DNA of 34,307 nt. Origin: a virus. Below the pieces are notes generated by a model. It searched no databases and was not told the DNA's origin. It worked only from the letters and a program-made list of their open reading frames with translations. A program made the position numbers and the translations under genes. Positions 9,772 through 12,942 of the stretch are shown here, piece after piece; the stretch's first letter is position 1; each line of letters begins with the position of its first letter. The stretch lies in the IMG/VR virus record IMGVR_UViG_3300027743_000063, positions 1 to 34,307 of that record; one strand, 5' to 3'.

Positions 9772-10025
9772 TACCGCACCCGGCGCAGGCGTGACAGCTC
9801 CGGGGGCTCGTTGGGCCAGTCGCCTTCGAGCCACGTGTCCACCCAGGACCGCCGCAGCCGATAGGGACCGTGCCCACCGTTCACCTTGATCGCACGCAGT
9901 TGGCCCCGCCCGATCGCGAGCCGCAGGGTTTCCGCGTTGAGCTTGGCTTCGGTCGCCGCCTCACGCAGCGTCAACCAGGGGTCTTGCACTGGCGCCAACG
10001 GCCGCACGGCCGCACCGGTCGTCAT
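9771..10025 (-). CDS. Excisionase/MerR-like helix-turn-helix protein (84 aa)
   Basis: The segment PWLTLREAATEAKLNAETLR, then LAIGRGQLRAIKV, then GPYRLRRSWVDTWLEG (about residues 16-68) matches the excisionase-type winged helix: a helix-turn-helix (TLREAA...LNAETLRLAI), a short wing (GQLRAIKV) and a closing helix. Proteins of this kind act as recombination directionality factors or as regulators. It is coupled to the repressor gene (ATGA at 10022-10025) rather than next to the integrase at 11213-12712, so regulation of the early operon is as likely as excision. Length is normal. Confidence 0.75.
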   Translation of the reverse strand: MTTGAAVRPLAPVQDPWLTLREAATEAKLNAETLRLAIGRGQLRAIKVNGGHGPYRLRRSWVDTWLEGDWPNEPPELSRLRRVR

Positions 10026-10270
10026 GGTTTGGCCTCCGCCGTCGCAATCGGGAACAGCCCATCGACGGTGCTCTTGAGCGCGACAGCGAGCCGCTGCGCC
10101 GTTTCGAGCGTCGGCGATTGGCCGTTGCGTTCGAGTTTGTGAATCGTCATCCGCGACACGCCGGAGAGCGTCGCGAGTTCGGTGAGACTCAGCCCGGCGA
10201 GACGACGCGCCTGCCCCAACGGAGTCAGTGGTTCCGCGTCGTGCGCGCGAGCCACAGTCGTGCGCCGCAT
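10022..10270 (-). CDS. XRE-family helix-turn-helix repressor (82 aa)
   Basis: A single helix-turn-helix domain: LGQARRLAGLSLTELATLSG (about residues 18-37), then VSRMTIHKLERNGQSPTLET, AQRLAVALKSTVDGLF. This is the Cro/CI-type DNA-binding fold without a C-terminal oligomerisation or peptidase domain, so it resembles Cro or a short repressor rather than full-length lambda CI. The ATG at 10270 is preceded by GGAGGG at 6-base spacing; a longer frame to 10357 has no such site. It is the first gene of the leftward operon and diverges from the 10511 gene, the standard layout of a lysogeny switch. It likely binds operators within 10271-10510. Confidence 0.85.
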   Translation of the reverse strand: MRRTTVARAHDAEPLTPLGQARRLAGLSLTELATLSGVSRMTIHKLERNGQSPTLETAQRLAVALKSTVDGLFPIATAEAKP

Positions 10271-10370
10271 GTGTTGCCCTCCACGCACCAGATGGGACTC
10301 TGGAAAACCGCGTGACGCCGAGTGACCAGAACGGTGGGGAACCGCTCCGCACGTCACCCAGACCTCGACG

Positions 10371-10798: not shown

Positions 10799-10853
10799 AG
10801 AGATGGAATATCATCAAAAGGATACAGGTGCATCGTGGGCAGCTATGCTGCGG
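10799..10853 (+). repeat. Duplicated early-region element, copy B
   Basis: Second copy of the element at 10429-10483. Here the GTG start of the next gene (10835) lies within the element, at a position that is GTA in copy A. Upstream flanks are also loosely alike (GATTT-CGCCT in both), which suggests that the duplicated segment was originally longer, perhaps 80 bp. Confidence 0.75.
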
Positions 10854-11209
10854 AAGTGCGACGACTTCCACCCACACGACTACAAGAGCTTCGCGGCCAG
10901 GCCCTCCGGTACTTCCGCGAAGAACGCGATCTCACGCAAGCCCACGTCGCGCGATTGGCGAACGTGGGCGTTGCAACTATCGGCCGACTGGAGACGCGCG
11001 GCCCCCGCGACCCACGCCTGTACGCCCGGGTGTGCCGCGTGATGATGGTGACGCCCCAGGAGATCGATCAATGGCTCGCGGCGCGCGTGATTGACCCGCG
11101 CCTCTGGCCGTTGATCTGGTGGTTTGAGAGTCAGGCGCCGCTGGTGCAAGAGGTCATCGGCGACTTGTTGCGGCAGTTGCCGCATGACGGATACGGCAAA
11201 GGGAGGTGA
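10835..11209 (+). CDS. XRE-like helix-turn-helix regulator before the integrase (124 aa)
   Basis: The segment LRGQALRYFREERDLTQAHV, then ARLANVGVATIGRLETRG (about residues 19-57) is a typical XRE helix-turn-helix. The rest is helical and lacks recognisable domains (VTPQEIDQWLAARVIDPRLW). The start is a GTG within copy B of the repeat; another GTG at 10856 is possible, since neither has a strong ribosome site. It ends 3 bp before the integrase start and so is probably its co-transcribed regulator, or a recombination directionality factor. The protein's own promoter would overlap its start, which suggests autoregulation. Confidence 0.7.
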   Translation: MGSYAAEVRRLPPTRLQELRGQALRYFREERDLTQAHVARLANVGVATIGRLETRGPRDPRLYARVCRVMMVTPQEIDQWLAARVIDPRLWPLIWWFESQAPLVQEVIGDLLRQLPHDGYGKGR

Positions 11210-11212
11210 CGA

Positions 11213-12712
11213 TTGCGTGATTTGTTGAAGCGCTGTGATTGTCCACCAGCGAAATGGTCGAAGTGTCGGCACGGCTTTCACGTGCGCAAGCAGGTGGGCG
11301 GGCACCGGCCGAAAATCTCCATCGACGAACTCGTGGGTCACGAGCGCATCCGGCTGGTGAGCCAGGCCGAAGCGGTGCGCGATGCGGTGGTCGCGGCGCT
11401 GCGCGAGCGGCCCACCGGCGCGGCGCTGATGCCCTACCTGCGGGCGCATCCGGCCATCGTCGCGTTCCGCACGGCGGATGACCCCACGCGCGTGGTCCCG
11501 GCGGTCGCCCTGTCGGCCGCCGGCACAACGCCGCTGGCCGACGTGGGCAAGGCCTACGTGAGCGCACTGGAGGCCGACCCGAACCGCCGGCCCAAGTACC
11601 GCGCGAACGTGCGCTCGATGGTGGCGGTGCTGAGCGCGTGGCCGATCGTCACGACACACGCCGGCTTGCCGGTCGCCACGCCGCTGGGCACGGTGCCGGT
11701 CGGGTGCGTCACTGACGATCTGCTGGAGGGGTTTCTCCTGAGCCGCGCCACCCTGTCGGTGAGCCAGCGCAACAAGGATCTCGACTTCCTGCGACGGCTC
11801 GGGCGCTGGGCCAAGCGCAAGCTCTATCGCCCCGAGGCCTGGCTGGTGCCGGGCGACGACGGGCCGACGCGCAAGAAGGAAACCAAACGCCGCCGGCGGC
11901 TGCATCCCGGCGAGGGGGACGCCTTGCTGGCCGTGGCGGGGCCGCTGCTGCGCGCGTGCATCATCGCGGGCGTGGAACTCGGCGCGCGGCTCGGGGAGCT
12001 GCTGCGCATCATCTGGGCGGATGTCGATCTGCCGCACGCGAAAGTGTGGGTGACGGATCTGAAAGACCCGACGCGGCGGCGGTCCCTCCCGCTGTCGACG
12101 CGCATGCTGGCGGTCCTCGAGATGCGCCGCACCGCGCCCGACGGCGAGGCCCACCCCCTCGACGCGGCCGTCTTCGGCAACGAGATCGGCGAGCGCGTGG
12201 AGTCGGTCTACACGGCGTGGGTCAACGCGGTGCTCAAGGCGCACGGCTTCCCGGTCCTGCGCGACAAGAAAACGCACGCGCTGCTGCCCGAGTCCCAAGC
12301 GGCCTACGCGGCCATCGATCTGGTGTTCTCGGATCTGCGCCACGAGGCGACCAGCGGGTGGCTCGATACCGCGGTGCCCATGCACACCGTCCGCGACTGG
12401 CTGGGGCACCAGTCCTTTGCGATGCTGGCGACCTACGGCCACACGACGCCCCAGGAATCCGAGCGCGCGATGCGGGACTTCGAGAAGGCGCAGAAGGCGG
12501 CGGCCCGGAAGGCGAAGCGCAGTGGCCCCAAAGTGGCCCCAGCGGCCCGGGCCGGTGGCCCCAGAGTGGCCCCAGCCCCGGAGGGCGCGGGAGCCCCAGC
12601 CGGCCCGGCCCACCGGGGGTCAGCGGGAAAAGTGGCCCAAAGTGGCCCCAAAGCGGCCCACAAGGCCGGTAGGAGAGGAACCCAGAAAGCAGCTAAGTCA
12701 TTGGTGCATTAG
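11213..12712 (+). CDS. int: Tyrosine recombinase (integrase), 499 aa
   Basis: Integrates and excises the phage at attP/attB. A TTG start is preceded by GGGAGG at 6-base spacing. Residues 1-35 have a Cys/His-rich start (RCDCPPAKWSKCRHGFHVRK), 105-205 form a core-binding domain and 225-425 the catalytic domain: R259 (GARLGELLRI), K284 (TDLKDPTRR), R376 in SDLRHEATSG, H399 (WLGHQ) and the nucleophile Y408 (ATYGHTT). The first His of the usual HxxR box is a Ser (S373). The last 70 residues are a Lys/Ala/Pro/Gly tail encoded by repeat DNA that looks like integrase arm sites, so the end of the gene doubles as part of attP. The half tRNA gene begins 6 bases after the stop. Confidence 0.92.
   Translation: MRDLLKRCDCPPAKWSKCRHGFHVRKQVGGHRPKISIDELVGHERIRLVSQAEAVRDAVVAALRERPTGAALMPYLRAHPAIVAFRTADDPTRVVPAVALSAAGTTPLADVGKAYVSALEADPNRRPKYRANVRSMVAVLSAWPIVTTHAGLPVATPLGTVPVGCVTDDLLEGFLLSRATLSVSQRNKDLDFLRRLGRWAKRKLYRPEAWLVPGDDGPTRKKETKRRRRLHPGEGDALLAVAGPLLRACIIAGVELGARLGELLRIIWADVDLPHAKVWVTDLKDPTRRRSLPLSTRMLAVLEMRRTAPDGEAHPLDAAVFGNEIGERVESVYTAWVNAVLKAHGFPVLRDKKTHALLPESQAAYAAIDLVFSDLRHEATSGWLDTAVPMHTVRDWLGHQSFAMLATYGHTTPQESERAMRDFEKAQKAAARKAKRSGPKVAPAARAGGPRVAPAPEGAGAPAGPAHRGSAGKVAQSGPKAAHKAGRRGTQKAAKSLVH
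12521..12573 (+). repeat. Arm-type-like AGTGGCCCC repeats, outer left cluster
   Basis: AGTGGCCCC occurs at 12521-12529, 12532-12540 (as AAAGTGGCCCC from 12530) and 12565-12573, all in the same orientation and inside the integrase reading frame. The first two are one DNA turn apart (11 bp). With the inner cluster at 12623-12659 and the right-arm clusters they fit the layout of arm-type binding sites for a tyrosine integrase. Confidence 0.6.
12623..12659 (+). repeat. Left inner arm repeat (28-bp identical copy plus one half-site)
   Basis: Bases 12623-12650 are identical to 12844-12871. The unit begins GCGGGAAA and contains two AGTGGCCC sites 10 bp apart. A further related site (AAGCGGCCC) follows at 12651-12659. 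It lies within the last codons of the integrase, about 60 bp left of the half tRNA gene. Confidence 0.7.
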
Positions 12713-12718
12713 GGACTT

Positions 12719-12763
12719 GCGCGTGTAGCTCAGTTGGATAGAGCGTCCGCCTCCTAAGCGGAA
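12719..12763 (+). other. attP: attP core: 5' half of tRNA-Arg(CCT)
   Basis: The DNA matches a tRNA-Arg from its first base: acceptor strand GCGCGTG (12719-12725), TA, D-arm GCTC/GAGC (12728-12731 with 12741-12744) around AGTTGGATA, anticodon stem TCCGC/GCGGA (12746-12750 with 12758-12762) and loop CTCCTAA with anticodon CCT. It then stops matching: no T-arm (GGTTCGAAT-like) or 3' acceptor strand follows. So this is half a tRNA gene, the expected match to a host tRNA-Arg(CCT) attB, with crossover likely in or near the anticodon stem-loop. It begins 6 bases after the integrase stop. Phages more often carry the 3' part of the tRNA. Confidence 0.85.
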
Positions 12764-12843
12764 CAACTGGCCCCAGCGTTCCCCCGAATCACCACTATTC
12801 CTAACATTTTCTCAATATGCCGCCAGCAGCATACAGGGCTCTG

Positions 12844-12871
12844 GCGGGAAAAGTGGCCCAAAGTGGCCCCA
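12844..12871 (+). repeat. Right inner arm repeat (28-bp identical copy)
   Basis: Identical over 28 bases to 12623-12650 and in the same orientation, about 80 bp right of the half tRNA gene. The two copies place matching pairs of AGTGGCCC sites on both arms of attP. Confidence 0.7.
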
Positions 12872-12893
12872 GAGGTTTTCGAGGGAGCCGTCC

Positions 12894-12918
12894 AAACTGC
12901 ACTTCCAAAATGCAGTTT
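12894..12918. promoter_or_regulatory. Inverted repeat in the right attP arm
   Basis: AAACTGCA (12894-12901) and TGCAGTTT (12911-12918) form a perfect 8-bp inverted repeat with a 9-base spacer. CACTTCC (12900-12906) and GGAAGTG (12920-12926) form an alternative one. This could be an accessory-protein (IHF- or Xis-like) site or an operator for the 12959 gene. No T-run follows. Confidence 0.4.
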
Positions 12919-12920
12919 CG

Positions 12921-12942
12921 GAAGTGGCCCCAAAGTGGCCCC
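12921..12942 (+). repeat. Arm-type-like repeats, outer right cluster
   Basis: GAAGTGGCCCC (12921-12931) and AAAGTGGCCCC (12932-12942) are exactly 11 bp apart and in the same orientation as the left-arm sites. They end 4 bases before the ribosome site of the 12959 gene. Confidence 0.65.

Follow-up and report, generated by a model that had tools for sequence, protein, structure and literature searches.

Why should an integrase gene in a phage genome be followed by the first half of a tRNA gene, and what becomes of that half when the phage enters a bacterial chromosome? The question is raised by positions 12713 to 12763 of the window, by which we mean the whole stretch of DNA analysed, an IMG/VR record of 34,307 bases from a soil phage, with genes for terminase, portal and capsid. 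The window showed no terminal repeat, but the packaging genes span both ends of the record, which suggests a permuted genome. The window is probably from a temperate siphophage-like virus of Acidobacteriota, a host class derived only from the acceptor of the tRNA and the distribution of the integrase. The half tRNA very probably belongs to the attP of this phage, whose integration would rebuild tRNA-Arg(CCT) behind the integrase gene (int), where it would be transcribed from phage DNA.

The half tRNA lies within a tyrosine-integrase attachment site

The tyrosine integrase, of 499 aa, is encoded at 11213..12712 on the plus strand (PF00589, E 1.6e-9; PHROG integrase, E 3e-26). The match to the PF00589 catalytic domain scores 38.2 bits against a cut-off of 27.1, and R259, R376, H399 and Y408, which we take to be the catalytic Arg, Arg, His and Tyr, are invariant in the integrase-family alignment. 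Among known phages only distant matches to the integrase were found, with about 30% identity over one third of the protein, including D3-like Pseudomonas phages. A small HTH gene (10835..11209, plus strand; Pfam HTH_31) precedes int with a gap of 3 nt, and the two likely form one operon; the same small gene is found before int in L098, a viral contig described below. A Cro/CI-type HTH regulator gene on the minus strand (10025..10357; Pfam HTH_3, E 5e-13; PHROGs transcriptional regulator) is a candidate immunity repressor, judging from these domain matches.

A spacer of 6 nt (12713..12718, plus strand) separates the stop codon of int (12710-12712) from base 1 of a tRNA-Arg(CCT) 5' half on the same strand (12719..12763), which consists of the acceptor 5' strand, the D-arm and the whole anticodon arm, with no T-arm. 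Positions 12719-12762 read GCGCGTG TA GCTC AGTTGGATA GAGC G TCCGC CTCCTAA GCGGA, with the CCT anticodon at 12753-12755. The tRNA can be followed from base 1 until the anticodon stem is complete at 12762, after which the sequence diverges. ARAGORN detected no tRNA gene in the window, so that a complete tRNA is absent, and the Rfam tRNA model matched 12719-12780 just under its gathering score (27.2 bits, E 9e-4), with the T-arm missing. The original prediction had described a half tRNA-Arg(CCT) without T-arm 6 nt past the int stop and had named an intact tRNA-Arg in a covariance-model scan as evidence against it; the half is confirmed by the sequence, ARAGORN and the Rfam model, and the scan gave the sub-threshold match alone. 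When the 44 nt of the window are completed with the 3' halves of tRNAs taken from two genomes of Acidobacteriota, ARAGORN recognises a clean tRNA-Arg(CCT).

The anticodon stem-loop TCCGC-CTCCTAA-GCGGA (12746..12762, plus strand), a 7-nt loop within an inverted repeat, is the probable recombination core, as it is in this loop and stem that tRNA identity stops in relatives. Direct repeat pairs of GTGGCCC are found on both sides of it on the plus strand. The P-arm (12522..12660) lies in the 3' end of int, with pairs starting at 12522/12533, 12555/12566 and 12632/12642, and the P'-arm (12853..12942) has pairs starting at 12853/12863 and 12924/12935. Measured from the anticodon, copies lie approximately 111 and 121 nt to the left, with further pairs at 187-231 nt, and 100, 110, 171 and 182 nt to the right; 10 of the 14 forward copies in the window fall in the two arms around the half tRNA. 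From their sequence and placement, the paired repeats are likely to be arm-type integrase sites. Core and arm-type sites at 12522-12942 together have the anatomy of a tyrosine-integrase attP, and the position of int to the left, together with the lack of a T-arm after the half tRNA, identifies the site as attP and not attL or attR. Translation of the arm-type repeats at 12522-12660 yields the C-terminal integrase tail (GPKVAP..GPRVAP..GKVAQSGPKAA), and thus the P-arm also serves as coding sequence.

In the proposed mechanism, recombination by the window integrase would take place within the host tRNA-Arg(CCT) gene, at its anticodon stem-loop. As attP holds the 5' half beside int, joining of this half to the host 3' half would give a complete tRNA directly behind int, and the host leader would be stranded on the opposite flank of the prophage, attached to a 5' fragment without function. 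Transcription of the restored tRNA would then have to come from phage sequence: either transcripts would run through from the HTH gene and int and be trimmed by normal tRNA processing, or a phage promoter located at the int end would be used.

The layout is shared by related phages

Relatives were gathered by capsid-protein and integrase-alignment searches of viral contigs. A single-sequence integrase scan of these contigs gave no confirmed relatives, whereas the alignment-based scans did recover them. In nine other integrases of the family, from independent IMG/VR contigs, a tRNA-Arg 5' half follows int on the same strand at a distance of 5-32 nt. Six of the halves are of the CCT type (L098, with an integrase 78% identical to that of the window, L101, L104, L208, L211 and L212) and three are of the TCT type (L099, L102 and L210). 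In all nine, tRNA identity stops at the anticodon loop or the 3' anticodon stem. With nine independent viral contigs sharing the layout, the half tRNA of the window is not a chance resemblance.

The viral contigs L085-L087 have related capsids and different integrases, with ordinary 3' tRNA pieces that include the T-arm. The family members L103/L214, L105 and L213 have no recognisable tRNA half downstream of int; ACGCTTC(T/C)CACGA(A/G)GGCAAC is common to L103 and L105, and is perhaps another target. A complete tRNA-Arg is also present on the 168-kb contig L002, which was rejected as unrelated.

The GCGCGTG acceptor of the window is found on tRNA-Arg(CCT) of Acidobacteriota, and among the 193 genomes of the Acidobacteriota class to which genome G111 belongs, perhaps Vicinamibacteria, 65 have a member of the integrase family (E up to 1e-12). 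Gammaproteobacteria were rejected as hosts, with the family found in none of 369 genomes at 1e-30.

A lysogen carries its complete tRNA-Arg(CCT) behind int

The integrated form was found in five genomes of the G111 class, with int followed after 15-18 nt by a complete tRNA on the same strand. A search for tRNA-Arg(CCT) genes interrupted or flanked by the integrase, which had been put forward as a check, succeeded for related integrases in four of them (G539, G490, G574 and G481), where int lies directly before the complete tRNA; the tRNA in G111 is tRNA-Gly(CCC). Beside the restored tRNA, int is uninterrupted in L121 and L122. The exact 44-mer of the window had no match in the bacterial genome contigs, where no lysogen or exact attB of the window phage was found, and no 5'-half remnant was found upstream of the G481 element (C1:1-18500).

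Both junctions were recovered in G539, a draft genome in which they lie on separate contigs and the prophage interior is unassembled. On contig C61 (attR), int is followed by 18 nt, a complete tRNA-Arg(CCT) and a TPR-like gene. On contig C70 (attL), the order is apt, leader, an identical 40-nt tRNA 5' half and phage DNA. A GTGGCAA repeat pair lies at -110/-99 relative to the core on C61 and another at +103/+113 relative to that on C70, and these pairs connect the two ends as parts of one element. The only two tRNA-Arg(CCT) pattern matches in G539 are the complete copy on C61 and the half on C70. In the relatives G285 and G075 the site is empty, and apt, tRNA-Arg(CCT) and the TPR gene follow in series. 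Thus, in the G539 lysogen the sole complete tRNA-Arg(CCT) found adjoins the int gene of the phage, and the host leader keeps a fragment. A complete tRNA at one junction and a fragment at the other, the pattern by which integration into a tRNA is recognised, is therefore present in a relative of the window phage.

The original prediction, that an attP with the 5' half sets the restored tRNA behind int upon integration, is in this way borne out via relatives, by both G539 junctions and by four genomes. Its corollary, that phage DNA would lie upstream of the restored tRNA, holds in G539, where the leader remains with the 5' fragment on the apt side. Junctions at which the host promoter is retained together with the complete tRNA, which would have spoken against it, were not seen in the 5'-type relatives, and those of G539 have the opposite arrangement. 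We infer the same junction outcome for the window phage.

Transcription of the restored tRNA

A -10-like hexamer (TANNNT) occurs within approximately 32 nt before the tRNA in 8 of 15 5'-type elements, compared with 1.9 expected from shuffles, and in 3 of 8 same-strand 3'-type elements. In L121, L122, L208 and L172, TAAACT or TACACT overlaps the final int codons and stands roughly as far from the tRNA as the native TACACT does in G285, G075 and G111. No such box precedes the tRNA half in the window or L098, and a scan of the window gave no convincing promoter. With boxes in many 5'-type elements, none in the window and some in 3'-type elements, read-through and a promoter at the end of int are both possible.

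That the tRNA is transcribed from a private phage promoter, with a -10 box over the last codons or stop of int, and so independently of int expression, has close to an even chance of being correct. The excess of TANNNT over the shuffles and the native-like distance of the boxes at the int end point to such a promoter; the boxes are consensus matches only, however, they are missing from the window and L098, and the three same-strand 3'-type elements that carry one have no need of it. Transcription solely by read-through of the HTH-int operon, with a tRNA level that follows integrase transcription as the original prediction had it, is in our view a serious possibility at somewhat less than an even chance. 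It is favored by the codirectional int and tRNA only 5-32 nt apart, by the start of int 3 nt after the HTH gene and by the lack of a promoter-like site before the half tRNA of the window. However, integrase genes are usually quiet in lysogens, which would lead to tRNA starvation, and many relatives have a candidate private promoter.

The original prediction also linked host AGG decoding to integrase transcription. This link is weakened, since tRNA-Arg(UCU), where present, usually reads AGG too. It is possible, though rather unlikely, that the HTH-int operon or a promoter at the int end is the only source in the lysogen of tRNA-Arg(CCT), or of the AGA-decoding tRNA in TCT-targeting members. If it were so, a cell in which that prophage end was lost or silenced would be deprived of a tRNA, and the state of the prophage would tune rare-codon decoding; the stakes would be higher for the TCT-targeting L099, L102 and L210.

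Comparison with known systems

In standard accounts a tRNA stays under its own promoter after integration, and the reverse is a rare exception. The principle of the reverse case is already known from archaeal pTN3-type integrases and, according to one review, from rare bacterial cases. In archaea, pTN3-like integrases use the tRNA 5' half, and the integrase promoter drives the restored tRNA (PMC8371274); in pTN3, the restored tRNA-Leu is separated from its original promoter and int is disrupted (PMC5495485). The review, citing Williams 2002, describes a similar situation as seldom met in bacteria (PMC8371274).

The Thermococcales elements pTN3 and TKV4 (PMC8371274, PMC5495485) resemble the window family in having the 5' half in attP and the restored tRNA on the integrase side, away from its own promoter. 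They differ in that their attP lies inside int, which is split by integration (a suicidal integrase), whereas int of the window family is whole and in the window ends 6 nt before the half tRNA; moreover, they are an archaeal plasmid and virus, and the window is from a bacterial tailed phage. The bacterial exceptions of Williams 2002, as that review (PMC8371274) presents them, likewise have the restored tRNA off its original promoter. Integration of the dusA type also involves the 5' end of a host gene, but according to PMC4482086 that gene is a protein gene and not a tRNA. Ordinary 3'-half integration at the anticodon loop, as in mycobacteriophage Boilgate (PMC10865867), shares the kind of enzyme, the core site, the arm-type repeats and the restoration of a complete tRNA at one junction. 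It keeps the host leader on the restored tRNA, whereas the window family carries the opposite half and the leader is lost.

In mycobacteriophages such as Fionnbharth, lysogeny is tRNA-dependent: the host tRNA is broken by integration and a complete phage tRNA elsewhere compensates (PMC10865867). This is very unlikely for the window, where the 44-nt identity suffices to restore the tRNA and the junctions of relatives carry a complete chimeric tRNA, and it was rejected as there is no compensating complete tRNA gene in the window. Although tRNA genes are common in phages and prone to decay, it is hardly credible that the half is the remnant of a complete phage-borne tRNA gene and not an attachment site. 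Although the integrases have diverged, each of the ten copies stops at the anticodon loop or stem and lies beside int and repeats of the arm type, and the two junctions of the integrated form in G539 rule this reading out.

What is new is a family of bacterial phage integrases with the 5'-half layout as the rule in some lineages, an intact codirectional int directly before the tRNA, the recovery of junctions together with the empty site that matches them, and the presence of the 3' type at the same gene. The family offers a natural experiment on the reasons for targeting tRNA genes, on phage takeover of host gene expression and on whether or not this stabilises lysogeny. Annotation of prophages and islands should seek 5' tRNA fragments besides 3' ones.

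Both tRNA halves are used within one integrase family

In G277, the same chromosomal tRNA-Arg(CCT) gene holds two tandem 3'-half elements of the same integrase family; the complete tRNA retains its own leader, and a 3' fragment follows each int. The tandem elements (L155/L156/L157, G277 C22:26479-48632) have related integrases and are both located behind that tRNA. The int gene is on the same side of the core in the 5' and 3' types, and only the tRNA half carried by attP differs. A tree built from 37 integrases places the same-strand 3'-type sequences in a single clade (99/92); thirteen 5'-type sequences cluster with two convergent 3'-type sequences (L127 and L199), and the window and L098 form a separate pair. 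Polarity, that is, whether the 5' or the 3' half is carried, tracks integrase lineage. For a single origin of the 5' type, the AU test gives p 0.078 with the 5'-type sequences alone and 0.48 with L127 and L199 included, values that neither establish such an origin nor discard it with confidence.

Two further arrangements involve other tRNA genes. Related integrases target tRNA-Gly(CCC) in either polarity: the tRNA is codirectional behind int in G111 (L140) and convergent in G075/G285 (L127/L199). At six loci (L130, L131, L135, L161, L162 and L170), int shares its 3' end with a convergent tRNA-Gln(CTG), so that the C-terminus of the integrase (..SNPDNVVQSHVSYR) is read from the opposite strand of the tRNA.
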